This document shows, piece after piece, positions 4,106 through 19,409 of a stretch of 64,000 bases of DNA. The stretch is from Aureimonas sp. ME7 (GTDB lineage: Bacteria > Pseudomonadota > Alphaproteobacteria > Rhizobiales > Rhizobiaceae): positions 372,001 through 436,000 of the forward strand of contig NZ_CAJCKW010000001.1 of assembly GCF_903970965.1 (NCBI RefSeq), read 5' to 3'. The notes under the pieces are model-generated. The model saw only the letters and a list, made by a program, of their open reading frames with translations. It made no database searches and was not told the DNA's origin. The position numbers and the translations under genes are program-made. Numbering within the stretch: position 1 is the stretch's first letter; each line of letters opens with the position of its first letter.

Positions 4106-4317
4106 CAAAGCCCACCTCGCAGGCGGAGACACGATAGGGGGCAGGTAGGGACGCTTTGTGTGTTTGCGTCCCGGCGCGGCTTGATGTCGGGCGGGGCATG
4201 GCCGAAGGTCCGCTGCGATTCGATCGAGGGATGCGAGGAACGGAAGATGCCGGCGCGCGACGGGACGAGAGCCGGCTTCCATGCCCGGCGCGAAGCGACG
4301 GGGAGGGCGACAGAACC

Positions 4318-4986
4318 ATGAGCGTCGCCGATCCCCTCCCGCCGACCCTGACGCTGACGACGCGCATCTGCGCGCAACTGCGCGACCGGGTGATCTCCGG
4401 CGAGTTCCTGCCGGGTCAGCGCTTGTCGGAAAGCGCGCTTTCGGCCGATCTCGCCGTTTCGCGCAATACGCTGCGCGAAGCGTTCCGCCTTCTCACCAAG
4501 GACGGCCTCCTGCGCCACGAGCCCAATCGCGGCGTCTTCGTGGTGACGCCCGACCATGCCGCGGTGATCGACATCTACCGGGTCCGGCGCCTCGTGGAAT
4601 GCCGCGCGCTCGCGCAAGGGGAGCCGGGCCATCCGGCGGTTCGGCGCATGCGCGCGGCGGTGGAGCGGGCGATGGATGCGCGCGAGGCGGGCGACTGGCG
4701 GGTCGTCGGCAGCGCCAACATGGCGTTCCATGCCGCGATCGTGGACTTGGCGGACAGCGCGCGCCTTGTCGCCTTCTATGCGCAGATCGCGGCGGAGCTG
4801 CGCCTCGCCTTCGGCCTCTTGGATGCGCCGGAGTTTCTCCACGCCCCCTTCATCGAGCGCAATCTCGCCATTCTCGAAGCGTTGGAAGGCGGCCGCGCGG
4901 AGGAGGCGAGCCGCATGCTGGACGACTATCTCCAGCGCTCCGAGCGCCTGATCCTCGGCGCCATGTCGCGCACACGGCCGGCCTGA
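4318..4986 (+). CDS. GntR/FadR-type (FCD) transcriptional regulator
   Basis: The protein has 222 residues. An N-terminal winged helix (about 10-75) contains the GntR signature LRDRVISGEFLPGQRLSE and SRNTLREAFRLLTKDGLL. The C-terminal all-helical FCD effector domain (about 85-215) contains RRLVECRAL and ANMAFHAAIVDL, which supplies the Asp/His positions that bind metal and ligand in this family. The frame is open further upstream, but the ATG at 4318 with GGGAGGG eleven nt before it gives the right N-terminus. It is transcribed away from the oxoproline operon and probably controls it; the Bacillus counterpart operon carries an IclR-type KipR instead. The ligand is unknown, with 5-oxoproline the obvious candidate. 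It converges on the SWIM gene with 10 nt between stops. Confidence 0.85.
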   Translation: MSVADPLPPTLTLTTRICAQLRDRVISGEFLPGQRLSESALSADLAVSRNTLREAFRLLTKDGLLRHEPNRGVFVVTPDHAAVIDIYRVRRLVECRALAQGEPGHPAVRRMRAAVERAMDAREAGDWRVVGSANMAFHAAIVDLADSARLVAFYAQIAAELRLAFGLLDAPEFLHAPFIERNLAILEALEGGRAEEASRMLDDYLQRSERLILGAMSRTRPA

Positions 4987-4996
4987 AGGCCGTTTC

Positions 4997-7033
4997 TCAA
5001 TCGCGGGGCGCGACGAAGGGCAGCGCGGGCTCCAAGCGCTGAAGCGCATCCAGCGCATGAACGGCGACGAGGAGATGATGGGCGCGCGCATCGCGCGACG
5101 CCGAGGCTAGGGCGCCGAGAAGACGGGCCGGCGTTTCGAAGCCGGCAAGCCGCATCTCTCCCGCGAAGCGCTCGATGCGCGCAAGGCGCTCGGGGTCCTC
5201 CATCCGCCCGCCGAGTTCGGCCAGCGCCAGAAGTTCGTCGGCGGCCGCCCCCGTCTGTCGGTAGAGAGGTGATGCGGCGGCGACGGGCTCTAAGCGGCGT
5301 GCGTTTCGCTCCGCCATCCCGTCGCGCAAGGCGTCGAAGCGCCGCGCCCAGTCGCCGAAGAAGGAGCGCGCCGGGGCCTTGCCCTCCCGGTGGGTCGGCA
5401 GATCCAGCGAGCGCAGCGTTTCGCCTGCGATCGCGATGGGCTCCAGCACGATCGCGCCTTCGCGCGCCCGGACGAGAACGCAGAGGATGGGCACGGGCCG
5501 GGCGCGGCGGGCAGCTTCCAGCGCCTCGATCCGCGCTTCCAGCCGGTCGTCGGCGGGGAGCTCCAGCGACAGCCAGAGCCCCGCCGCATCCCCGACCGGC
5601 CAGCGCACGCACTGCGCCAGGGTGTCGAAGGCAGGGCGCTCGACCTCTACCGGGCGCAGAAGCACGAGCCGGGCGCCGGGGCGGGCGCGAAGGCTCGGCC
5701 GCGCGGATTGGCGCAGGGTCTCGCGCAGCTCGCTCCAATCGCTCGAAACCGCGCCGGAGGCTTCCACGATCCCGCTCCACGAGCCGGGTTCGCGCGTCGC
5801 TCGTCCCGCTGCGCTGGACAGGCGACCGCCGGGGCGGGCGGCCCCTTCCACGAGCCGGAAGGCACCGGCCGACAGCTCGGCGAGCGTTGCTCCGAGCACC
5901 GGTTCGAATTGTGCTGCCTCCAGCGGCGAGAAGCCGGGATCGGCCCCCGCTGCCCTCGCCAGCGTCAGCGCGAAGGGCGCGCCGTCATCGAGGCGCAGGA
6001 GATGGGCCGTCGCGCCGCGCCCGCCGGTGGTCCCGCGCCAGAGTTCGAGGCCGCATCCGAGAAAGCGCGTCGGCGGGAGCGGCTCCCCCACCTCGCGCGT
6101 GGTGCCGCCGAGTCCTCGATCGCCTCCCTCGCGCAGCGCTTGCGTCAGGGCATAGGCACCCGCGATGCGCCGCAGCGTCACGCCCGGCTCCTCCGTTTCC
6201 AGCCGTTCCCGGTGCCGGCGAAGCGCGGCGGCGATCGCTCGGAGTTCGGCGGCAAGGCGCGGCATGGTCTCGATGCGCGACGACAGGGCGAGATCGCCGA
6301 TCCGCTCCTCCAGCGCGGCAGGCGCGGCGGAAAGCCCCGAGCGCGCCGCCTCGCGCAGGGCGGCGGCCACCGCGTCCGCCACGGGGGAGGGGGCGTCGGG
6401 CTCGGGTTCGCGATCCCTGGCTCCCGCTCCGATCATTTCGGGCCGCCGGATCGCCAGGACGGCGGCGGCATGGAGCGCCGCGCGTTCGCGCGCCTCCGCC
6501 TTGGACACGAGCCCGCCCGGCCCCGCGCCGGCGGGCAGGAGCACGTCCGGCTGGCCGGCGATGCGCACCGTGACGAGTCCCGGCGTCGGCGTGATCGCGA
6601 CCTCGCCGGGGCCGAGGCCGGCGAGGAGCGCTTCGGCGCGCACCAGGGCGGCGCGGCCGAAGGCCTTGGCGAGCGCCGTCTCGCTCCAGGCGTGGATCTC
6701 CGCCATGGCGTCCGGGGCGGGGGCGGCGTCCGGCGCCGTCGTTTCCACCGCCTTGCCCGGCGGCGCTTCGCGCAGCGCGATCACGGCGGTGAGGATATGC
6801 CGGCAGGCGCCGGTGGCGGGACAGGTGCAGGTGGCACCCGACAAGGGGCCGGGGGCAAGGCGCACGGTTTCCCCGTCCACGGCGAGAATGGCGGTGCCTT
6901 CCTCCCAAGCGGGTTCGTCGACGAGCCCGGCTTCGGCGTCCCGCCTCGCCCGGCGCACGAGGCCTCGGTTGGCCGCCGCTTCCAACACCTCGTCGGTGAT
7001 GGAGGCGGCGGAAAAGCGTGCTGCCCCGCTCAT
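4997..7033 (-). CDS. yehQ: SWIM zinc-finger protein (YehQ-like), last gene of the five-gene MoxR/VWA operon
   Basis: The product has 678 residues. Near the N-terminus (69-79) it has CTCPATGACRH, a CxC...CxH SWIM zinc finger (C69, C71, C77, H79) of the kind that binds DNA or proteins. The rest is Ala/Arg-rich and mostly helical, with no enzyme motif recognised. The frame stays open 89 codons upstream, but the ATG at 7033 overlaps the VWA stop by 4 nt (ATGA) and is the natural start. In E. coli the SWIM protein YehQ is encoded beside YehL, YehM and YehP, exactly the partners found here. The role, perhaps recognising a target or nucleic acid for the ATPase/VWA module, is inference. Confidence 0.8.
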   Translation of the reverse strand: MSGAARFSAASITDEVLEAAANRGLVRRARRDAEAGLVDEPAWEEGTAILAVDGETVRLAPGPLSGATCTCPATGACRHILTAVIALREAPPGKAVETTAPDAAPAPDAMAEIHAWSETALAKAFGRAALVRAEALLAGLGPGEVAITPTPGLVTVRIAGQPDVLLPAGAGPGGLVSKAEARERAALHAAAVLAIRRPEMIGAGARDREPEPDAPSPVADAVAAALREAARSGLSAAPAALEERIGDLALSSRIETMPRLAAELRAIAAALRRHRERLETEEPGVTLRRIAGAYALTQALREGGDRGLGGTTREVGEPLPPTRFLGCGLELWRGTTGGRGATAHLLRLDDGAPFALTLARAAGADPGFSPLEAAQFEPVLGATLAELSAGAFRLVEGAARPGGRLSSAAGRATREPGSWSGIVEASGAVSSDWSELRETLRQSARPSLRARPGARLVLLRPVEVERPAFDTLAQCVRWPVGDAAGLWLSLELPADDRLEARIEALEAARRARPVPILCVLVRAREGAIVLEPIAIAGETLRSLDLPTHREGKAPARSFFGDWARRFDALRDGMAERNARRLEPVAAASPLYRQTGAAADELLALAELGGRMEDPERLARIERFAGEMRLAGFETPARLLGALASASRDARAHHLLVAVHALDALQRLEPALPFVAPRD

Positions 7034-8178
7034 CGCATGTGCCCCGCGACCCACTGCGCGAAGTGTTCGGGCGTCAGGGCGGCGATCTCCATGCCGGCCT
7101 CGACGAGCCGTTCGGCCGTGTCCCGGTCGTAGGAGGGCTTGGCCTCCTCGTCGATCGCAGCGAGCCCCAGAAGCTTGACCCGCGCGCCCGCGAGGCGCCG
7201 CGTCGTGGCGAGAAGCGCGCCGAGGGAGGCGCCCTCGCAGAAGTCCGAAACGAGGACGAGAAGCGTGCGCTCCGGTGTGGCCACATGGCGCGCCTCGCAA
7301 TAGCTGAGCGCCCGGCCGATATCCGTGCCCCCGCCGAGCTGCACCGACATCAGAACATCCACCGGGTCTCCCACCCGGTCCGACAGGTCGACGATCGCGG
7401 TGTCGAAGAGGACGAGCTTGACGTCGACGGCCGGAAGCTGGCTGAGGATCGCGGCCATGACGGCGCTATAGATCAGCGAGGTCGCCATGGAGCCGGACTG
7501 GTCGATGCACAGGACGATGCGCCAGGGCAGGTGACGGCGCATGGCGGCGTGGAAGCGCAGGTGCTCGACGACGAGCGCTTGGCGTTCCGCGTCCCAGTTC
7601 CGGAGGTTGCGCCGGATCGTTTCGCGAAAGGCGAGATCGCGCGCCGAGCCCTTGAGGCCCGTCGTCGCCCCGCGCCGGCGCGCACCGGACAGGGCGCGGC
7701 TGGTCTGGAGGCGGAGGCGGCGCGTCAGCTCCTCGACGACCCGCTTGGCCACCTGCCGGATCTTGGCCTCCACCGCCGGGTCGGAGCGGCCGCGATGGGC
7801 AAGGAGCGAGGCGAGGATCGCGGGGTCAGGCTCGAGTTCGGCCAGCGCCTTGGCGTCGTCCAGGATCTCGGTCATCCCGAAGCGGGCGAGCGCATCGGTC
7901 TTGACGATGTCGAGCACGCCTTGCGGAAACAGCTCGCGCATTTCGCCGAACCATTCGGGCATGGTCATCCGAGGCGGCTCGTTGCTGCCGCGCGGGGACT
8001 TGCGCCCGCCATCCAGCCGAATGCCGCGCCGCCGATAGCCCTCGCCGTAGATCCGCTCCAGCGCACGGTCGCGCCGAAGATCGGCGCCCGAACAGCACGC
8101 GCCCATCGAGCGGTCGGCGAAGCGGCCGAGAACGAGGCGCCAGCGGCGCAAGGCCTCGTCGGGCGTGTCCTGGCTCAT
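7030..8178 (-). CDS. yehP: VWA-domain protein (YehP-like) with intact MIDAS
   Basis: This cytoplasmic protein of 382 residues has a helical Arg-rich N-terminal half (1-215) and a von Willebrand factor A domain (about 217-382). The MIDAS metal site is complete: DQSGS at 226-230 gives DxSxS, GGTD follows near 272-275, and LVLVSDF supplies the third acidic loop. VWA proteins of this kind work with MoxR-type AAA+ ATPases as chaperone or substrate-binding partners, for example in metal-cofactor insertion. Start ATG 8178 overlaps the DUF5682 stop by 4 nt. Two cysteines (CCSGADLRRDRALERIYG) sit in the N-terminal region. It resembles E. coli YehP by domain layout and neighbours. It shows no signal peptide or membrane segment. 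Confidence 0.87.
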   Translation of the reverse strand: MSQDTPDEALRRWRLVLGRFADRSMGACCSGADLRRDRALERIYGEGYRRRGIRLDGGRKSPRGSNEPPRMTMPEWFGEMRELFPQGVLDIVKTDALARFGMTEILDDAKALAELEPDPAILASLLAHRGRSDPAVEAKIRQVAKRVVEELTRRLRLQTSRALSGARRRGATTGLKGSARDLAFRETIRRNLRNWDAERQALVVEHLRFHAAMRRHLPWRIVLCIDQSGSMATSLIYSAVMAAILSQLPAVDVKLVLFDTAIVDLSDRVGDPVDVLMSVQLGGGTDIGRALSYCEARHVATPERTLLVLVSDFCEGASLGALLATTRRLAGARVKLLGLAAIDEEAKPSYDRDTAERLVEAGMEIAALTPEHFAQWVAGHMR

Positions 8179-10649
8179 GCGGTGTGCGCTCCGGCTTGCG
8201 GCTCCAGCCAGGCGCCGAGCCCATCCTCTCGCCAAAGCGCGACGAGCTCCGCGTCGAGCCGCGCGCCCTCGAGAAGCTCGGTTTCGGAAAGGTGGTCGGG
8301 GAGGCGCGGCGCGAGATCGAGCGCGCTTGCGTGGCCGCGCGCGATCTCGGCGGCGAGATCGTCGGTTTCGCCGGGCGCGAGGCTGGAAAAGGCGTAGCGC
8401 AGGCCGGGCAGAAGCTGGAGAAAGTCCTCCGCCGACAAGGCGGCCATCGCTTCGTCCACGGCAGCCAACAAGGCCGGTACGCGGCGCAGGAGCGCCGGCT
8501 GGACGGCCAGGACCCCGACCAGCGGCTCGGTCCGTCCCTTGGGCTCGCCCCCGAAGCGCAGCGCGCCGGCGATTGCGGTGCCAAGCTCCTCTGCCGTCAG
8601 CCGCCCGGCGAGATAGGACAGCGCGGCGACGGCGCCCGCGACGCGCGGCTCCAGCGCCGCATCGCTTAGATCTGCGATCCCCTCGTCCAGAAGGTCGAGG
8701 GCGAGGGCGGGAAGGTCGCTCTCGCCGCTGCCTGCCCCTTCCGCGACGTCGTTGAGGGCGGCGAGCGCCGAAACGAGTGCCGGCACGTCCTCCTCGCCCG
8801 CATCGCGAAGGTTCGGCAGGAGGTCGATCGCGCGGGCGTAGGCAAGACGGCGCAGGCGGCCGGGGTCGTCGGTGTCCGCGAGGCCGAGGATGCGCCGGCC
8901 TCGGCACAGGTTGTCGAGGGCGGCGAGCGTCGAAACCGTGCGGCCGAAGTCGGGGTCGGCTCCGATCGCCTCGCCGATGGCGCGCACAAGTGGGCCGCAG
9001 GCGCCCGCCATCCCGGCCTGCGCCGCGGTGACGAGAAGGCGCACGGCGGCGGCGGCGTTCCGCTCCTCCGCCCTTTCGCTCAAACGGGCGATTTCGCGCC
9101 GGAGAACGGCGACCGCGACCCGCTCGATCGTGTCGCCGTCCGTGCAAAGGGCGACGAGCCGCGTTTCCACCGCCGGCGTCCAGCGATAGGTCCATTGCTC
9201 CGTGATGATGTCGGTGGACACGCCCCCGCTCCAGTCCGGCCCCTGCCGGCACTGCGCGAAGGGGGTGCCGAGAAGCACCATCGCATGAAGGAAGCGGCTG
9301 GCGGCCAGATGTCGGGGCTTGCGGTGGAGGTCGAGCGCACGAGCGCGCTCGGTGCCGTCCTCGACGTTGAACCGGAGGGCGCGAGCTCTGGCACGCAGGG
9401 CCTCCACCAGCGGTGGGCTTCCGGCCGCGCGGGGCACCTCGCCGATCCCCTCGCCGCCGAGCTCGAGGCCGAGCATCTCCATCAAGGGCGAGCCGTAGCG
9501 CGGGTCCTCGTCCTTGACGAGACAGGAGCGGGCGGCGTCCACCACCTCGCAGCGGCCGGGGCCGGGAAGGCCGCGAAGCGAAGCGAGGCCCCGCGCATGC
9601 GCCAGCGTTTCGACGAGGGCGGGAAGCGGCGGCGCGAAGCCGGGGCGCTCGGCGCGAAGGCGCTTGGCGAGCGACAGGACGAGATCGCCCGCCGCCGCCT
9701 CGCCGGGATCGGCGGCGCCGGCACCGGCCGCCGCGGCGAGCCGCTCGTACCAGCGCGGGCTCGGCATGCCCGCCCCGTAGCCGTTGATCCGGTTCAGCGC
9801 CTCGTGGGTGTAGCGCACGAGATAGGGCGTGGCGGGCGCCGGCTTCGGGATCGCGATCTCAGCCACATCGGGCGGATCGAGCAGCACCGGCGTATGGAAG
9901 CCGCCGGTGACGACGGCGATCGGGCCGTCGCCGGGGGTTTCCAATGCCTGGGCCACCGCCGCGCGCATGAACGTCTCGCGTGGGCGCGTGTCGTCGTCGG
10001 CGATCTCGGCCTCCGGCGTCAAGAGGCGCGTCAGGAAGCAATGGACGCCGATGTCGCGAAAGAACAGGCGCCAGTCCCGGTCCGCGATGCGGCTTTCGAA
10101 CAGACGGTCCCAGGCCTCGTTGAAGTCGCGCGCGCAAAGGCGCTTGACGAGGGCGTCGGCGTAGCGCCCGCCGGCCAGCGCCTCCTCGCCCGTCAGGAGG
10201 AGCGGGGCGGGGGGCTCGTCGGGTCTTGCCTGGTTTGCCCGTTCCTCCTCCAGCGCCAGCCGGGTGCCGCTCGGCAGGTCGGCGAGGAGGATAGGGATGC
10301 CGGCGGCGTTCGCCCAGCGCAGCGCGGTCCATTCCGGTGCACTGTCCGAAAACGGCCAGTGGGCGACGGGGACGCGCTCGCCCCTGGCCTCGGTTATGGA
10401 GACGACGGACACCGGGTTGCGTGTCTCGGGATGGGCGAGAAGAGGCAGGATCGGCCCGAAGTCGGCCGGCATCTCGATCACCAGAGCGCGCGGGCGCGTC
10501 TCCGCGAGAGCCTGAGCGAGATGATGGGCGCAGGCCGGCGAATGGTGGCGGATGGGAAAGAACAGGCAGCCCCGCTCGCCCGCAAGGAGCCGTTCTCCCC
10601 AAGCGCTGAAGCCTTCGGATGCGAAGGCGGCCTCCGTCGAACCCGCCAT
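8175..10649 (-). CDS. yehM: DUF5682 protein (YehM-like)
   Basis: The product has 824 residues. The N-terminal block contains FFPIRHHSPACAHHL (about 30-44), the conserved RHHSP element of DUF5682, followed by ALVIEMPADFGPIL. Later it has VVTGGFHTPVLL and an extended helical C-terminal half. The conserved histidines suggest an enzymatic or metal-binding site, but no reaction is known for this family. The ATG at 10649 shares one base with the MoxR stop, and the 3' end overlaps the VWA gene by 4 nt, so the protein is probably made in fixed ratio with its partners. No membrane segment is evident. E. coli YehM is the nearest named relative by family and gene order. Confidence 0.82.
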   Translation of the reverse strand: MAGSTEAAFASEGFSAWGERLLAGERGCLFFPIRHHSPACAHHLAQALAETRPRALVIEMPADFGPILPLLAHPETRNPVSVVSITEARGERVPVAHWPFSDSAPEWTALRWANAAGIPILLADLPSGTRLALEEERANQARPDEPPAPLLLTGEEALAGGRYADALVKRLCARDFNEAWDRLFESRIADRDWRLFFRDIGVHCFLTRLLTPEAEIADDDTRPRETFMRAAVAQALETPGDGPIAVVTGGFHTPVLLDPPDVAEIAIPKPAPATPYLVRYTHEALNRINGYGAGMPSPRWYERLAAAAGAGAADPGEAAAGDLVLSLAKRLRAERPGFAPPLPALVETLAHARGLASLRGLPGPGRCEVVDAARSCLVKDEDPRYGSPLMEMLGLELGGEGIGEVPRAAGSPPLVEALRARARALRFNVEDGTERARALDLHRKPRHLAASRFLHAMVLLGTPFAQCRQGPDWSGGVSTDIITEQWTYRWTPAVETRLVALCTDGDTIERVAVAVLRREIARLSERAEERNAAAAVRLLVTAAQAGMAGACGPLVRAIGEAIGADPDFGRTVSTLAALDNLCRGRRILGLADTDDPGRLRRLAYARAIDLLPNLRDAGEEDVPALVSALAALNDVAEGAGSGESDLPALALDLLDEGIADLSDAALEPRVAGAVAALSYLAGRLTAEELGTAIAGALRFGGEPKGRTEPLVGVLAVQPALLRRVPALLAAVDEAMAALSAEDFLQLLPGLRYAFSSLAPGETDDLAAEIARGHASALDLAPRLPDHLSETELLEGARLDAELVALWREDGLGAWLEPQAGAHTA

Positions 10650-11752
10650 CAGCCGAGCCTGAGCGCGCGCGCCGCCTCGTAGAAGGAACGCCAGTCGCCC
10701 GACGAGCGCGCCCGGTCCTTGGCGACGTGATCGACATAGGACTTGAACTTGGCGCCGTCGGCCGGATCGTCCTTCAGGACGACGCCGCCGATCTGGCGCG
10801 CCAGATGGCCGCCCGTCACCTCGCCGCCCTGCAGATAGACCGCTTCCAGCGCCGCGGCATGCGCGACGTTGACGGCCTCGGCGGTGGACATCACGGCGGC
10901 GGGCTTGGGGATCGCGACGCCCTCGCGCGTGCGCCCTTCGCGCAACTCCTGGAAGCAGGAGACGAGGATGTCGAGTGCGGCCGGCGGCAGTTTGGCCTCA
11001 GTGCCTGCCCCGGTCATGCGGTCGGCCAGACGGCGCTCGATCAGCTCACGTTCGAAGGCCGGGTCGCCGATCGGATGCACGGTCTCGAAGTTGAAGCGGC
11101 GCTTGAGCGCGCTCGACATCTCGTTGACGCCCCGGTCGCGCAGGTTGGCGGTGCCGATGACGTTGAAGCCGGGCGCGGCGCGCACCACGGCCTCGTCCCC
11201 GAGTTCGGGAATGGCGATCGTCTTTTCCGACAGGATGGAGATCAGCCCGTCCTGGATCTCGGGCGCGCAGCGCGTCAGCTCCTCGATGCGCACGATCGTG
11301 CCTTCCTGCATCGCCTGGAGAACGGGCGAGGGGACGAGCGCCTGCCGGCTCGGCCCTTGTGCGATCAGGAGCGCGTAGTTCCAGCCGTAGCGCAGGTGGT
11401 CCTCCGTGGTGCCGGCCGAGCCCTGCACAACGAGCCGCGTCGAGCCCGACACGGCGGCGGCCAGAAGCTCGGACAGCATCGACTTCGCCGTTCCCGGCTC
11501 GCCGACCAGCATCAGCCCCTGTTCGCCCATCAGGCTGACGATCGCGCGTTCCACCAGCGCGTCGTCGCCGTAGAACTTTCGCGACACGCCGAGCGCCTCG
11601 TCGCCGAGGACGAAGCTTCGCACGGCGCGCGCCGATAGGCGCCAGCCGGGCGGCTTCAGGTTCTTGTCGGCCTCGGACAGGCGCTGCAGTTCGCCGGCAA
11701 AGCGCACTTCCGTCGCCGGGCGCAGAACGGCCGTTTCCTCCACGTTGCTCAC
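10649..11752 (-). CDS. yehL: MoxR-family AAA+ ATPase (YehL-like)
   Basis: The protein has 367 residues. Walker A is GEPGTAKS (84-91). The Walker B position reads IVRIEE (153-158), with Glu where the usual Asp-Glu pair begins. NVIGTAN follows as sensor 1, then SSALKRRFNFE as the arginine-finger region and a helical lid. MoxR ATPases are ring-forming chaperones that act with VWA proteins; the YehL group is a distinct branch of that family. The start is a GTG at 11752 that overlaps the DUF4132 stop as GTGA; the first residues are MSNVEETAVL. It should power the system built by the VWA, DUF5682, SWIM and DUF4132 proteins. The substrate is unknown. Confidence 0.9.
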   Translation of the reverse strand: MSNVEETAVLRPATEVRFAGELQRLSEADKNLKPPGWRLSARAVRSFVLGDEALGVSRKFYGDDALVERAIVSLMGEQGLMLVGEPGTAKSMLSELLAAAVSGSTRLVVQGSAGTTEDHLRYGWNYALLIAQGPSRQALVPSPVLQAMQEGTIVRIEELTRCAPEIQDGLISILSEKTIAIPELGDEAVVRAAPGFNVIGTANLRDRGVNEMSSALKRRFNFETVHPIGDPAFERELIERRLADRMTGAGTEAKLPPAALDILVSCFQELREGRTREGVAIPKPAAVMSTAEAVNVAHAAALEAVYLQGGEVTGGHLARQIGGVVLKDDPADGAKFKSYVDHVAKDRARSSGDWRSFYEAARALRLG

Positions 11753-14700
11753 CAGCCGCCCTTCTTTTCGTGCTCGGGGTCGAAGCCCGTCCCCTTAGCC
11801 GCGATCTCGCGGTAGTCGTTCCAGGCTTCGGACACGAGGACCGGCGGCACGTCGCTCAAAGCGACGCCGCTTCCCCCGCCCCAGCGCGAGACGCGCTCCG
11901 GTCCGGACGGCTCGAAGGCGAGCGTCGTCAGGTATTTCGGCACCCGGTCGTTCTCGCCGACATAGGAGCCGCTGAACTCTATCACGGCGACAAGCCCGGA
12001 GTCGGGAAAGCTCTTCTCGTACGCGTAGAAGCCGGCGCCGTCCTCGACCGAGCCGCGGATATAGCCGAGATTCTCGGCCGCCGAGCGGAGGGTGAGGTTG
12101 TCGATCATGTGGCCGCGTCGGTCGTCGATGACGCGTGCTTCCGCTTTCGTCTCGCCGGGCGCGGGGCGCTGGAACTGCTCGAAGAGCGGCGACACTTCGT
12201 AATCTTCGAGATGCTGCGTCCAGGCGGCGGACGCCTCGTCGCCGAGGCTCGCACGATGCGCGATGCCGATGCCGGCGAAACCGTCGATCTCCACGCGCTC
12301 GTCCTCGGCATCGGTGAAGGTGCCGTCGTCGAGGGCGCGCAGGCTCTGCACGACGTTTCCTTGCGCATCGTGCCCGGTCAAAACCAGACGGCGCAGGAGA
12401 TGGTTCATCACCGGATGAGCCAAGAGAAACGACTGGAAGTCCGCCACCGGCCAGATCCGCCCGGCGCACATCGCCTCATAGAGCCGTCCAGTTTGGAGCT
12501 CCACGGTCTGCTTGAGTTCCTTCTTGGCGGCCGACAAGGCGCCTTTCGCTTCCTTTGCCTCAGCCGCCTCGTCCGGGTCGCTCGGCGAGGGAAGCGATGC
12601 GACCGGCTTGCCGTCCGGGTTCTGAAGGGCGAGGCGCAGTTCGGGTGCGCCGGTCTTCTTGGCCTTCACCGTTTCCAGCCGGGCGCGGAACGTGCGCTCG
12701 CCGACGGGGAGTTCCAGCGTGCCGGTCTCGTCGAGGCCGACAGCGGGAATGGTGCGGTCGGCGAGTTCCGCCGGGCTCCAGCCGCGCTCCTCGGCGAAGC
12801 GCGCGGTGACCTCGCCGGCATATTTGCGAAGGCCCGGCTGCTTGTGGCGCTGCGAGGCGGCCAGCACCAGCTGGAGCGAGGCGGGCTCGGGCTTGGCCAT
12901 TAGCATGTCCACCAGCGCCCGGCATTGGTTGGCCCGCTTGCCGTGGTCGCGCAGGTAGCGCTTGACGATCGCCGCCGCATCCGCCGCCGGCGCGTAGGCG
13001 GCGAGCGCCAGGAGCCCGCGATGGTCGAGCGCGCTGTTGAGGTAGACGGCGAGCTTTTCGCGCCGAAGCTCGGCGAAGGCGAGGTCTTCGGTGAAATCCT
13101 TCTGCCAGCGCTGGCGATATTCGGCCGTGCGCTTGGCGTTCTCGGCGGCATAGGCGTTGGCCTCCTCGCTGGAAGGGCGGGCGGTGTCGAAGGCGACGAA
13201 GGCGTTGAGGATCTGGAGCCCCAGCCGCTCGGCGTCACCCCGGTCGAGGCGCTCCAGCGCCATGTGGAGGAGCGGGTCGCCGCCGGCGTTCTTCAGCTTG
13301 TGGGCGCGCACGAACCACCAGCGCACGACCTCCGCCGGTACCTCGCGCCCGTCCGCCCAATGAAGCGCGGGCAAGGCTTCGGCGTCGAACAGGGCGGAAA
13401 AGTCCGCCTTGGTCTTGGCGAGACCCTTGCGCGCGTCGGCAAGAAGCTTGTCCTCGGAGAACTGGTCGGACACGTCGTCGCCGCACAGGGCCAGCGCCGA
13501 GATGATGGCGGCCGTGGCACCGACCCCCTTCTCCTTTTCCAGCGCCTTGCGAAGGGCGGGAACGGCGGCGTCGTCCCGGCGCTCGGCCAGCCACCGCGCA
13601 CCGGCGATGCGTGTCGCCTCCGCGCCCGCTTCCAGCATCGGGGTGATGACAGGCGTCAGTTCCGCGACGTCGCGCAGGAGCCAGCGGGCATAGTCGCGCC
13701 CGCGCTTCTGGCCTTGCGCCGCACGGTCCACCACGACGGGGAAGTAGCGGCGCGGCAGCTTGGGGAAGAAGCTGAGCGCCAGAAGGCCGAAATCGGCGCC
13801 CTGGTCGCGCAGGCGTCCGGTCGGTCCGCCGAACGCCTCGTCCAGCATGGCCGGCTCCGCCATCAGGACGGGCCAGACGGTTTCGTTGGTAGGCACGCGC
13901 GGGCGTTCGGGCAGGTTGAACCAGCGCCCCTTGGTTTCCCGGAACAGGGCGGACATGGCGTAGCCGCTCCGTTGCGCCGCTGCCTCGAAGATCCGCAGGT
14001 CCGCGCCGGCGCCGTAGCGCTTCTGCAGCTCGAAGCCGGCTGGCGAATAGGCGTGGCCTTCGGAGCCGAGCGCCGTGCGCAGGACATCGGCCGCCGCGCG
14101 CTCCTGCCGGATCGCGAAGACGAGATTGGCGAGTGCCTCGATCGAGACGTCGCTGCGCGAAAGCAGGGCCGCCAGCTGCTTGGAATGGGTATCGCGCGCC
14201 TTGCTGCTCCAATATTCCAGCCGAGGATCGATCACGATGCGAGCCGCGCCCGCCTCGTCGTCCGACAGGGGCGCCCCCTTCATCGCGGCGACCACATGGC
14301 GCGCGGCGGCCGGATCGACGGGCGGCCGGAAGGGTTTGGCCTTGCGCTGGTTCCATTCCTTGCCGACCGGGGTGCGGGCGTAGTCGTCCTGCGCCGCCGC
14401 GTTGGTCGCTTCCAGCACGGCGCGCAGCGCCCCTTCCAGATCGGCCGGCAGGGGAGGCTCCGCTTCGGATGCGGTGGTCGGGGCGGAAACGAAGCTTCCG
14501 TCGAAGGCGACATATCCGTCCGGCCCATCGGCCTGACCCTCCGGCCCTTCGCCGCCGACGGCCGCGCTCGCTCGCGCCGTGGCGATGGCCTGGAGCACCG
14601 CCTTGGCCTTTTCGCCGCCTGCCTCGTGCGCTTCGAGAAGGGGCAGGGCGTCCGACCCGAGGCGGGCGAGGAGCACGTTGACGGCGGCCAGCCGATCCGC

Positions 14701-15621
14701 CGACTGCTTGGACCCGAGGGCCTCGGCCGCCTTGTCGCGGATGCGCGTCTCGTCGGAGGTGGCGAGCGCCGCGATCGCCGCCTCGCGCGCGGTGCGCGCG
14801 CTGTTGCCGGCGCTGGCGAAGACGAAATCGAAGAAGCGCGGCTCGGCGTCGATCAGCCCTTCGCGCGCCAGGAACTGGATCATCACCTGCCGACCCGTGG
14901 AGCCGAGGGCGGCGATCGCCGCGACCGCCTCGCTTGGGGCCGCCGCGAGCGCTTCCGTAAAACCCGGCATCGCGAGATAGCTGGGCGTGTGGCGGTCGTA
15001 GGACGAGGTCTCGCCGCCGGAGAATCCGCAGTCGATCAGGGCAGGGAATGCGCTGGCCTCACCGTCCTCCAGCATGGCGAGGATGCGCGGCGCGGTCAGG
15101 AAGCCGAAGCCCTTCCGGTCCCGGTTCTGGTGGTTCTGGAGCTTTCCCGCCACGATATGAACGAGGGATCTCGCCCAGGTCGGCGAAGCGTCGGTGCCGG
15201 GATAGTTCCAGCGATAGCTGCTCGACATCGCCTGAAGGGCGAAGAGCTCGCCGTAGCGGCGCAGGACGCCGGGGTCGAAGCCTTCCAGATCCAGAACCAC
15301 GCGTTCGCGCGCCTTGGCGTGACGTTCGTAGTCCTTGGGGTTGTCCGTATGGGCGCCGTGGGGCTCCAGCACCTGATACGTTTCCCAGTAGCGGGGATGG
15401 CCGGACTGCAGAAGGTTGCCTAGACGCAGGAGAAACGTCGCGTCCTCGCCAGTCAGGACATAGCGCGCCGCCGCCTCGCCGAGATCGGGCTCGATTCGGT
15501 TCAGAACCGAAAGATCGGCGGCGATCGCCTTCTCATCGGCCGCCGTCAGTCCCCCGACCGGTGAAGGATCCTCCGCCGGACTACCGATCCCGAACAGTTT
15601 CTTGAGGCTGGCTCCGATCAT
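11749..15621 (-). CDS. yehI: DUF4132 protein with HEAT-like helical repeats (YehI/MolR-like), first gene of the operon
   Basis: This is a very large protein of 1290 residues. The middle is made of Ala/Leu-rich helical repeats resembling HEAT repeats (for example around 240-340 and 640-700), and the C-terminal third (about 950-1290) fits DUF4132, the domain of E. coli YehI and MolR. No catalytic motif, signal peptide or membrane helix was recognised. The ATG at 15621 follows AGGAGG at a good distance and is preferred over a start 17 codons earlier. It leads a five-gene operon in which every junction overlaps by 1-4 nt. A scaffold or target-recognition role is inference. The naming rests on family membership and shared neighbours. 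Confidence 0.8.
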   Translation of the reverse strand: MIGASLKKLFGIGSPAEDPSPVGGLTAADEKAIAADLSVLNRIEPDLGEAAARYVLTGEDATFLLRLGNLLQSGHPRYWETYQVLEPHGAHTDNPKDYERHAKARERVVLDLEGFDPGVLRRYGELFALQAMSSSYRWNYPGTDASPTWARSLVHIVAGKLQNHQNRDRKGFGFLTAPRILAMLEDGEASAFPALIDCGFSGGETSSYDRHTPSYLAMPGFTEALAAAPSEAVAAIAALGSTGRQVMIQFLAREGLIDAEPRFFDFVFASAGNSARTAREAAIAALATSDETRIRDKAAEALGSKQSADRLAAVNVLLARLGSDALPLLEAHEAGGEKAKAVLQAIATARASAAVGGEGPEGQADGPDGYVAFDGSFVSAPTTASEAEPPLPADLEGALRAVLEATNAAAQDDYARTPVGKEWNQRKAKPFRPPVDPAAARHVVAAMKGAPLSDDEAGAARIVIDPRLEYWSSKARDTHSKQLAALLSRSDVSIEALANLVFAIRQERAAADVLRTALGSEGHAYSPAGFELQKRYGAGADLRIFEAAAQRSGYAMSALFRETKGRWFNLPERPRVPTNETVWPVLMAEPAMLDEAFGGPTGRLRDQGADFGLLALSFFPKLPRRYFPVVVDRAAQGQKRGRDYARWLLRDVAELTPVITPMLEAGAEATRIAGARWLAERRDDAAVPALRKALEKEKGVGATAAIISALALCGDDVSDQFSEDKLLADARKGLAKTKADFSALFDAEALPALHWADGREVPAEVVRWWFVRAHKLKNAGGDPLLHMALERLDRGDAERLGLQILNAFVAFDTARPSSEEANAYAAENAKRTAEYRQRWQKDFTEDLAFAELRREKLAVYLNSALDHRGLLALAAYAPAADAAAIVKRYLRDHGKRANQCRALVDMLMAKPEPASLQLVLAASQRHKQPGLRKYAGEVTARFAEERGWSPAELADRTIPAVGLDETGTLELPVGERTFRARLETVKAKKTGAPELRLALQNPDGKPVASLPSPSDPDEAAEAKEAKGALSAAKKELKQTVELQTGRLYEAMCAGRIWPVADFQSFLLAHPVMNHLLRRLVLTGHDAQGNVVQSLRALDDGTFTDAEDERVEIDGFAGIGIAHRASLGDEASAAWTQHLEDYEVSPLFEQFQRPAPGETKAEARVIDDRRGHMIDNLTLRSAAENLGYIRGSVEDGAGFYAYEKSFPDSGLVAVIEFSGSYVGENDRVPKYLTTLAFEPSGPERVSRWGGGSGVALSDVPPVLVSEAWNDYREIAAKGTGFDPEHEKKGGW

Positions 15622-18116: not shown

Positions 18117-18521
18117 TCAGGCCGCGGCGATCGCCTTTTCGATGTCGGCGCTGGTCTGGCCGGTGAGGTCCTTCGAGATTTCGCCGACGAGCGCGTCCTT
18201 CAGCTTGACGTGGTAGTGCTTGCGCATCTCGCCGAGCGCCCGGGGCGCCGCGATGACCACGATCTTGGAAATCTTGCCGCCGATGGCCTGCTGGTTGAGG
18301 ACATCGACGACGCCCGCGACGAACCCGTCCTCGTCCTGCGTGTCGTCGTCGGGATTGGCCGCGCTGCTGGCGTGTCCCTTGCCCCCACTCTTGTTGTCGG
18401 TGTCGATCGGGCCGACGGGCAGCGCGGACAGCTTCGGCGAGGCCTCGTCGCCCCCGTTCTGGAACAGGCTGAGCTTCTGGCCGTCCATCACCGCAACCGT
18501 CGCACCCTTGGGAATTTGCAT
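18117..18521 (-). CDS. Host attachment family protein
   Basis: This small soluble protein of 134 residues begins MQIPKGATVAVMDGQKLSLFQN. It continues with a charged, low-complexity insert (Asp/Ser/Gly-rich, about 50-70) and ends with KIVVIAAPRALGEMRKHYH and a helical tail containing DLTG. This is the pattern of the 'protein required for attachment to host cells' family (Host_attach), common in rhizobia and related bacteria. Biochemical function is unknown; the fold resembles archaeal release-factor/pelota-type domains, so a translation-related role is also conceivable. The ATG at 18521 follows GGAG. A strong terminator lies directly downstream, so it is probably monocistronic. Confidence 0.8.
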   Translation of the reverse strand: MQIPKGATVAVMDGQKLSLFQNGGDEASPKLSALPVGPIDTDNKSGGKGHASSAANPDDDTQDEDGFVAGVVDVLNQQAIGGKISKIVVIAAPRALGEMRKHYHVKLKDALVGEISKDLTGQTSADIEKAIAAA

Positions 18522-18680
18522 GTCGTTCTCCGTTTTCGGCGAGCGGATGTCCGCCGCCTTGTCCGTCCGGTCAACGCGGACGGGGCCGAGATGGCTCCCT
18601 GGCGGACGCACGAGGCGGGCTTGTTCCCCGGCCCGGCGTCCGGTTAGCCTCGTGCCGTCGGCAAGGTCTGGGAGGACGGC

Positions 18681-19409
18681 ATGGACGAACGTTTGCAGGG
18701 GCGCGTCGCGCTGGTGACGGGGGCGAGCTCGGGGATCGGCCGGGCGACGGCGCAGCTTCTGGCGGGGGAAGGAGCGAGCGTGGTTCTCGTGGGGCGCTCG
18801 GCCGAGCGGCTCGGCCGGACGGCGGGCGAGATCGAGGGAGAGGCGCTCGCGATCGCGGCCGATCTCGCCGTGCCGGGCGAGGTCGATCGCGCGGTGGCCG
18901 AGGCGCTTGCGCGCTTCGGGCGCATCGACATCCTCCTGCCCAATGCCGGCCTCTACATTCCCGGCGACGTGGCGGAGGGGAACCCCGAGCGCTGGGAGGA
19001 GATGATCGCGGTCAACGTCTCCAGCGTGTTCCGCCTGGTTCGCGCGGTTCTGCCGGGCATGATCGAGCGCCAGGGCGGCGACATCGTCGTCACCTCCTCG
19101 ATCTCCGGCCATCAGGCGATCCACTGGGAGCCGATCTATTCCGCCTCCAAACACGCGATCCAGTCCTTCGTGCACGGGCTTCGCCGACAGGTGTCGAAGG
19201 ACCGGGTGCGGGTCGGGGCTGTCGCGCCGGGCATCGTCCTCAACGAGCTCTGGGGCTACGACGACCCCGCCGCGATCGAAGCCAAGGTCGAGGCGCGGGA
19301 GGGCCTGCGCTCTGAGGACATCGCCGAGGCGATCCTCTTCATGCTGACGCGCCCCCCGCACGTGACGATCCGCGACCTCGTGGTCCTGCCCCAGAACCAG
19401 GACATCTAG
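18681..19409 (+). CDS. SDR-family oxidoreductase
   Basis: The protein has 242 residues and a classical short-chain dehydrogenase fold. TGASSGIG at 13-20 binds the dinucleotide, NAG follows near 91, VTSSIS near 140 gives the catalytic Ser, and YSASK near 153-157 gives the catalytic Tyr/Lys. RSAER after the second strand suggests NADP(H), not NAD(H), but this is not decisive. The family oxidises or reduces alcohols, including sugars and polyols. It lies on the same strand as the sugar-type ABC importer (153 bp before the leader ORF), so a role in catabolism of the imported compound is plausible but not shown. It diverges from the attachment gene across 159 bp. Confidence 0.85.
   Translation: MDERLQGRVALVTGASSGIGRATAQLLAGEGASVVLVGRSAERLGRTAGEIEGEALAIAADLAVPGEVDRAVAEALARFGRIDILLPNAGLYIPGDVAEGNPERWEEMIAVNVSSVFRLVRAVLPGMIERQGGDIVVTSSISGHQAIHWEPIYSASKHAIQSFVHGLRRQVSKDRVRVGAVAPGIVLNELWGYDDPAAIEAKVEAREGLRSEDIAEAILFMLTRPPHVTIRDLVVLPQNQDI

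Follow-up and report, generated by a model that had tools for sequence, protein, structure and literature searches.

A recurrent five-part MoxR/VWA module in Aureimonas and other bacteria, with a putative Tiki/TraB/ChaN-type domain in its DUF5682 protein

What kind of machine is encoded by a compact operon of five overlapping genes, and what is it for? The question is raised by a 64,000-nucleotide stretch of the Aureimonas sp. ME7 genome (hereafter the window; contig NZ_CAJCKW010000001.1, positions 372,001 to 436,000), in which five open reading frames (ORFs), all on the minus strand and spanning positions 15621-4997, code for a DUF4132 protein, a MoxR-family AAA+ ATPase, a DUF5682 protein, a VWA protein and a SWIM zinc-finger protein, with successive overlaps of 4, 1, 4 and 4 nucleotides (Table 1). 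The initial annotation had noticed these overlaps and had read the genes as a complete machine matching the set around yehI and yehL-yehM-yehP-yehQ of Escherichia coli, a match that the annotation of the E. coli region confirmed. We did not find a functional study of this set in the literature under yeh genes, DUF5682, DUF4132, DUF5691, MoxR/VWA or Tiki, in a coverage that leaves out most subscription papers. The five families were found to form one recurring module, with an N-terminal region in DUF5682 that resembles domains of the Tiki/TraB/ChaN type.

The unity of the module is firm. We gathered 103 non-duplicate DUF5682 loci, nine from plasmid records, 13 and 80 from genomes (the 80 from named species) and the one in the window; the synteny counts exclude the short duplicates L001, L002 and L013-L025 as well as L012, which comes from a phage collection. 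Sufficient flank was available for 75 loci, the other 28 lying outside this count, and 71 of the 75, many more than chance would give, contained all five parts, i.e. MoxR, DUF5682, VWA, SWIM and either DUF4132 or DUF5691. By partner, MoxR and VWA were found in 73 loci each, SWIM in 72, DUF4132 in 50 and DUF5691 in 21, the last two never together. The incomplete loci were L009 from a Streptomyces plasmid (with a DUF4132 gene by annotation and a neighbour with a sub-cut-off SWIM match), L062, where the DUF4132 genes are on the opposite strand, and L054 and L109, where DUF5682 was the only part detected. The gene order of the window was the commonest (36 of the 103 loci, tandem DUF4132 copies collapsed). 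Across a sample of 299 genomes of the phylum, DUF5682 was over the cut-off in 12, DUF4132 in 10 and DUF5691 in five (two sub-cut-off DUF5691 matches, G148 and G339, were left out). All 12 DUF5682 genomes had DUF4132 or DUF5691, against two of the 287 DUF5682-negative ones (Fisher p ~1e-19, indicative only since the genomes are related), and DUF5682 was present in eight of the ten DUF4132 genomes and in the five DUF5691 genomes. Besides, the distances of MoxR, VWA and DUF5682 co-varied over 94 loci (rho 0.81-0.85, still including the shared species history; 200 label permutations gave at most 0.085). What stands from the complete five-family machine first proposed is the recurrence of the set; its fifth part is not fixed, being either DUF4132 or DUF5691.

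The motifs were conserved as well. The window MoxR carries a Walker A motif, whose pattern was kept in 96 of 96 relatives, and the MIDAS of the window VWA protein, annotated from the start as intact, reads D-Q-S-G-S and is conserved as DxSxS in 94 of 94. The RHHSP motif described in the window is conserved as RH[HL]xP in all 104 DUF5682 proteins longer than 600 amino acids (aa), while CxCxnCxH was kept in 81 of 84 SWIM-type proteins, with a conservation of 90% or more for the ligands C69, C71, C77 and H79 across 29 relatives. By sequence, the best match of MoxR in PDB was midasin; PDB searches with profiles of DUF5682, of the C-terminal part of DUF4132 and of SWIM, and with the window DUF4132 protein, gave no relatives or chance-level matches only. 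Two or three tandem DUF4132 frames precede MoxR in L041, L052, L093, L094 and L096, as they do in E. coli. In L011 (a Methylosinus plasmid) the VWA gene, downstream of position 14208, is probably broken since it is split into three separate frames.

Two architectures could be distinguished. Type A has DUF4132 (the window, E. coli, Proteus, Lachnospiraceae and others) and type B has a SWIM-DUF5691 pair preceding MoxR (Rhizobium, Deinococcus, Rhodococcus and others). In a quick tree of 93 rows, restricted to the MoxR proteins of the module, the 57 type A and 27 type B rows were split by a single change (SH-aLRT 100; nine rows unlabelled). On this tree the window MoxR was located inside type A, in a branch other than that of E. 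coli, and its nearest named rows come from what we take, by their genus and family names, to be alphaproteobacteria. The named rows belong to nine phyla (Pseudomonadota, Actinomycetota, Bacillota, Planctomycetota, Verrucomicrobiota, Cyanobacteriota, Chloroflexota, Thermodesulfobacteriota and Spirochaetota), which plasmid records extend to Bacteroidota and Deinococcota. In profile comparisons the homology between the SWIM families of the two types extended past the finger (96% probability, 247 columns), and a HEAT-like stretch was common to DUF4132 and DUF5691 (76%, 91 columns). One genome (G326) contains both types, at loci L028 and L029. A small ORF of ~124 aa was found near the module in five Clostridia-type loci, L087 (15283-15654), L075, L088, L090 and L098, and is a possible sixth component there.

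Which of the parts could be the enzyme? DUF5682 had been annotated as a possible one, and this suggestion is strengthened by the profile comparison together with a Pfam TraB match in a relative: the RHHSP-bearing N-terminal part looks like a domain of the Tiki/TraB/ChaN type, an assignment that is new here and well supported at the level of profiles. Its invariant residues in 56 sequences are R34, H35, H36, P38, E59, D124, R208, R224, M228, G249 and H252. Against a pooled TraB and ChaN profile the domain scored 47.0 (79% probability) over 197 colinear columns, from RHHSP to GGFH; TraB alone gave 32.9, spanning R224 to H252, and ChaN alone 31.8, spanning RHHSP to D124. All these scores were above the best ones of column shuffles (20.5 for the pooled profile, n=142; 19.1 for TraB and 22.0 for ChaN, n=100 each), and decoys from the other module families scored 13-18. 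As a yardstick, TraB and ChaN match each other with 85% probability over 43 columns. Among the 56 members, the Pfam family TraB_PrgY_gumN matched one at E 8.9e-5; a loose cut-off raised this to two, and at that cut-off ChaN, the next most frequent family, matched five (best E 0.035). TraB was unmatched at 1e-4 in 36 full DUF5682 frames, a set that overlaps the 56. DUF5682 has motifs in the same order as the Tiki/TraB/PrgY and ChaN families, beginning with RHHSP and going on with E59, D124, R224...M228 and GGFH, whereas it is very distant from them and its domain sits on a protein of 800 residues tied to an AAA+ machine. Tiki proteins are described as metalloproteases (PMC12329661). Because its RHHSP part looks Tiki/TraB/ChaN-type, DUF5682 is a putative metal-dependent hydrolase.

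A physical link between DUF5682 and VWA is provided by two loci, L009 and L071 (a Micrococcales contig), in which they are fused into one protein. In the NorQ/NorD pair, the VWA partner inserts into the pore of the MoxR ring and has its linker remodelled for metal insertion in nitric oxide reductase (PMC13036017). Given the fusion and this precedent, DUF5682 is the likely client of MoxR/VWA. As in NorQ/NorD and the CoxD/CoxE-type maturation pairs, a MoxR ATPase with a VWA partner (CoxE-like in the window) is found beside a client; unlike in those, a protein with a Tiki-type domain would play the client, and two scaffold proteins are added. The reading ranked first, which we hold tentatively, is that of an accessory system for stress or conflict, in which a Tiki-type hydrolase, placed on a recognition scaffold that changes fast, is loaded or gated by MoxR/VWA. 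All operon products would then form one machine, with the MoxR ring as motor and the VWA protein as the adaptor via which it acts on DUF5682. The N-terminal domain of the latter would be a Tiki/TraB/ChaN-type hydrolase or peptidase, probably metal-dependent, and ATP hydrolysis would open this enzyme or load its metal, in the way in which nitric oxide reductase is served by NorQ via NorD. Target recognition would fall to the helical DUF4132 protein (DUF5691 elsewhere) with the SWIM zinc finger, the part that would evolve fastest. We infer this order of action, as well as the ring stoichiometry. The purpose would be an accessory stress or conflict function, possibly costly and frequently gained and lost, rather than a housekeeping one.

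Several results weigh against this proposal. The probability of the pooled profile varied with the gap threshold (80, 79 and 51% at three values), the single profiles gave 17% (TraB) and 11% (ChaN), and whole-length alignments of DUF5682 gave 37% with TraB and 4% with ChaN. The window DUF5682 itself has no Pfam match to TraB or ChaN, and no PDB relative of DUF5682 was found by sequence. DUF5682 was found without a detected partner in L054, L064 (which has little flank on one side) and L109. Finally, the decay of the E. coli copies described below could mean merely that the locus is dispensable.

The module is widespread and patchy. At least 571 stretches in contigs of species-representative genomes encode DUF5682 relatives, and in the genome samples DUF5682 was found in two of 142 genomes of the class and 12 of 299 of the phylum. 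A close copy of the window MoxR, which was the query rather than DUF5682, was absent from 15 of 15 congeners (best match 38% identical over about half the length). The operon is flanked by a convergent GntR-FCD gene on its downstream side and a divergent MFS transporter gene on its upstream side, and homologues of two flanking genes were found in most congeners, which together with the absence of a close MoxR copy suggests horizontal gain or repeated loss. A clean empty site was not seen, the genomes with the closest MFS gene (G427 and G437) carrying the closest YcsF gene on a separate contig. A GntR regulator lies at 4156-4986 of the window, near D-glutamate cyclase and LamB/YcsF genes that adjoin at 1064-2662. 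Matches were also found in 36 records of a plasmid collection, some of them chromosome-sized. A phage origin was considered and rejected, as the sole match in the phage collection, L012 (MT835988.1, UNVERIFIED; MoxR-DUF5682-VWA), is a scaffold from faeces, possibly of bacterial sequence.

Such a patchy distribution, the lack of a close MoxR in the 15 congeners and the presence on plasmid records would also suit an anti-phage or anti-plasmid defence, in which the scaffold senses the invader and MoxR/VWA switches on DUF5682 as a toxic effector. Among the plasmid loci, L006 adjoins type I restriction genes, L008 a PDDEXK nuclease gene and L011 a VapC toxin-antitoxin pair, and a conflict role has been proposed for other MoxR-VWA systems (PMC7159879). 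Nevertheless, none of the five window proteins matched a PADLOC model at E 0.1, and among 131 flanking proteins of 24 loci (eight of the 139 listed flank ORFs, from L009, L041, L043, L045 and L051, were omitted) 173 PADLOC families were matched, each by at most two proteins, in a survey without a random-locus control. The 16 pattern matches in viral contigs yielded no confirmed relative, with a pattern scan that may miss divergent copies. Nor were effector domains ever swapped in the sets described next, so that the biological-conflict role raised at first has so far not been favoured by these searches. We consider the defence explanation somewhat unlikely.

The lack of domain swapping is a difference from the ternary MoxR-vWA conflict systems. 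We had scanned the 56 DUF5682 rows clipped to their matched ranges, which could miss end domains, and the scan was redone on full open frames. At E 1e-4, 36 DUF5682, 36 VWA and 40 DUF4132 proteins (subsets of the 94, 85 and 48 loci with such frames) showed only the core families, HEAT and WGR; the extras of DUF4132 were HEAT_2 in 21, WGR in four and HEAT_PBS in one, and SWIM was the sole domain found in 29 SWIM proteins. Swapped effector domains on a constant core were thus absent from the DUF5682, VWA, DUF4132 and SWIM sets, the MoxR and DUF5691 sets being unscanned. In the ternary systems (with VMAP, iSTAND, FtsH or beta-propeller components), the VWA partner bears many alternative domains (PMC7159879). 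They resemble the module in the MoxR and VWA core, the further dedicated partners and the uneven evolution rates among parts, and differ in that the partners here are DUF5682, DUF4132/DUF5691 and SWIM. The terms YehL, SWIM, DUF4132 and TIKI do not appear in that paper. No Pfam domain of a VMAP, iSTAND, FtsH or beta-propeller third component was over the cut-off in the five window proteins (the coverage of these components by Pfam is unchecked), and bpMoxR gave only sub-cut-off matches.

The E. coli copies bear on cost and dispensability. By annotation, the region reads metG-(WGR-DUF4132)-yehI-yehK-yehL-yehM-yehP-yehQ, and the gene that lies between metG and yehI, a WGR-DUF4132 one without a name in the records, we take to be molR. 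The region has the five families of the window operon in the same order and direction, whereas the window operon belongs to a different type A branch, has a single DUF4132 gene without WGR and keeps its five frames open, most of the E. coli copies read having a broken gene. YehL is one of the seven named MoxR subfamilies (PMC3893208). Of 5426 complete E. coli genomes, 5155 have a yehL-Q stretch that spans 80% or more of the query, nearly always on the chromosome, a constancy that argues against defence; for the WGR-DUF4132-yehI stretch the same coverage was reached in 4682. yehL-Q was more divergent than metG, with 90-95% identity in 2090 of 5313 matching records versus 222 of 5587.

We read ten E. 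coli regions, hand-picked from spread lists (seven from the yehL-Q list and three from the WGR-DUF4132-yehI one). At least one gene among the WGR-DUF4132 gene, yehI, yehM and yehQ was flagged as broken in nine of the ten, or in eight of nine if CM13, whose module proteins have the K-12 accessions, is counted with K-12; yehK was flagged in two. In K-12 itself the WGR-DUF4132 gene and yehQ are broken. No gene outside the WGR-DUF4132-to-yehQ stretch was flagged in the ten regions, and yehL and yehP never were, a weak negative at n=10. The genes affected differ from strain to strain, by point changes or insertion sequences (L150, L151, L152, L176, L177 and L179-L182), and L178 is intact. The module stretch of the metG-btsS region is a candidate pseudogene hotspot, and its decay suggests that the module is costly or dispensable in E. 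coli. The insertion of a resistance transposon in the metG/DUF4132/yeh region of a sublineage of sequence type 131 (ST131), reported in PMC9334617, is consistent with dispensability.

Among intact copies a gradient of rates was found. The mean pairwise ratio of non-synonymous to synonymous substitutions (dN/dS; eight E. coli loci, fewer per gene, with L179, L181, L182 and broken-flagged genes left out) was 0.040 for yehL, 0.060 for yehP, 0.121 for yehM, 0.112 for yehQ, 0.198 for yehI and 0.270 for molR, and 0.004-0.030 for the neighbours metG, btsR, btsS, yehS and mlrA. Since all values are below 1, the rates of the module are relaxed or partly diversifying, with positive selection unproven. 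The gradient, with the ATPase and VWA constrained and the DUF4132 proteins fastest, fits a constant motor with a changing recognition face. Fast evolution of recognition-like parts and repeated inactivation, as in costly systems, count in favour of defence too.

A DNA-damage response complex was also considered. In this reading the WGR, SWIM and helical proteins would attach to DNA that is damaged, or to its proteins, for removal or cleavage by the MoxR/VWA-Tiki core. A LexA-like site, CTGGATAAAATTACAG, lies 25 bp upstream of the E. coli WGR-DUF4132 gene, WGR was present in four of the 40 DUF4132 proteins mentioned above, E. coli molR appears in a list of LexA-regulated genes (PMC11039860), and the DUF4132 protein DRA0166 of Deinococcus radiodurans is induced by mitomycin C in an IrrE-dependent way (PMC8533742). 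However, the counts of six damage-box patterns at 93 operon starts were within the shuffle range, the E. coli site was the sole one judged convincing among them, the window operon has no LexA-type box upstream and the Pfam scan found no WGR in its DUF4132 protein. General SOS/LexA control of the module was rejected for want of any excess of boxes over shuffles. The molR listing and the DRA0166 induction keep open a role in DNA damage for some members; as an explanation of the whole module we find it quite unlikely.

The remaining alternative, a housekeeping one, is that the module is a maturation chaperone for a metalloenzyme encoded elsewhere (e.g. one related to molybdenum or copper), in which DUF5682 would have an accessory part. 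Known MoxR/VWA pairs are linked to metalloenzyme maturation (PMC3893208 and PMC13036017) and the window VWA is CoxE-like. Yet clustering of the flanking genes, in clusters without formal annotation, gave broad families or close relatives only and no specific conserved neighbour, bar the ~124-aa ORF of the five Clostridia-type loci, and a housekeeping metal or cofactor role looks unlikely because of the patchy distribution and the repeated decay in E. coli. We regard it as improbable, the least favoured of the four readings.

Table 1 Features of the operon in the window
Feature	Position	Strand	Evidence
DUF4132 protein, 1290 aa	11749..15621	-	PF13569 E 3e-35 at residues 1004-1187; weak HEAT_2; HEAT-like helical repeats and C-terminal DUF4132 domain
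MoxR-family AAA+ ATPase (YehL type), 367 aa	10649..11752	-	Pfam AAA_5 E 2e-36; Walker A
DUF5682 protein, 824 aa	8175..10649	-	PF18934 E 1e-102; putative Tiki/TraB/ChaN-like N-terminal domain at about residues 24-254, then long C-terminal part
RHHSP motif, DUF5682 residues 34-38	10536..10550	-	R34, H35, H36 and P38 invariant in 56 sequences
VTGGFHTP motif, DUF5682 residues 247-254	9888..9911	-	G249 and H252 invariant in 56 sequences; aligns with TraB VGAxHLxG
VWA (CoxE-like) protein, 382 aa	7030..8178	-	PF05762 (VWA_CoxE) E 2e-47; MIDAS
SWIM zinc-finger protein, 678 aa	4997..7033	-	Pfam SWIM E 0.014, under cut-off; ligands C69, C71, C77, H79

The window also contains, at 18117-19361 on the minus strand, an ORF with a C-terminal baeRF_family12 / Host_attach domain.

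Phage defence, damage response and enzyme maturation remain as readings next to the one that we rank first, a Tiki hydrolase gated by ATP that would serve stress or conflict as an accessory. New here are the Tiki-type reading of DUF5682, the broken module genes in nine of ten E. coli loci and the rate gradient among the intact E. coli copies. A bolder view, which we find doubtful, would make the module a new class of AAA+-gated hydrolases, in which a Tiki-type peptidase of the cytosol is switched on by a MoxR ring and its VWA adaptor and directed to its target by a helical-repeat/SWIM scaffold that evolves rapidly; it would be an inducible surveillance or immune device of many phyla, parallel to Clp and Lon in function and built from unrelated parts. 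The broken version in K-12 may be one reason why the function of the module stayed obscure: with the WGR-DUF4132 gene and yehQ inactivated, yeh deletions there may tell little, and intact copies like that of the window are better suited. The module is a real and widespread MoxR/VWA machine whose probable enzyme now has, from profile similarity, a candidate fold family, and the Tiki/TraB/ChaN-type assignment of DUF5682, if it holds, would provide named residues for testing.

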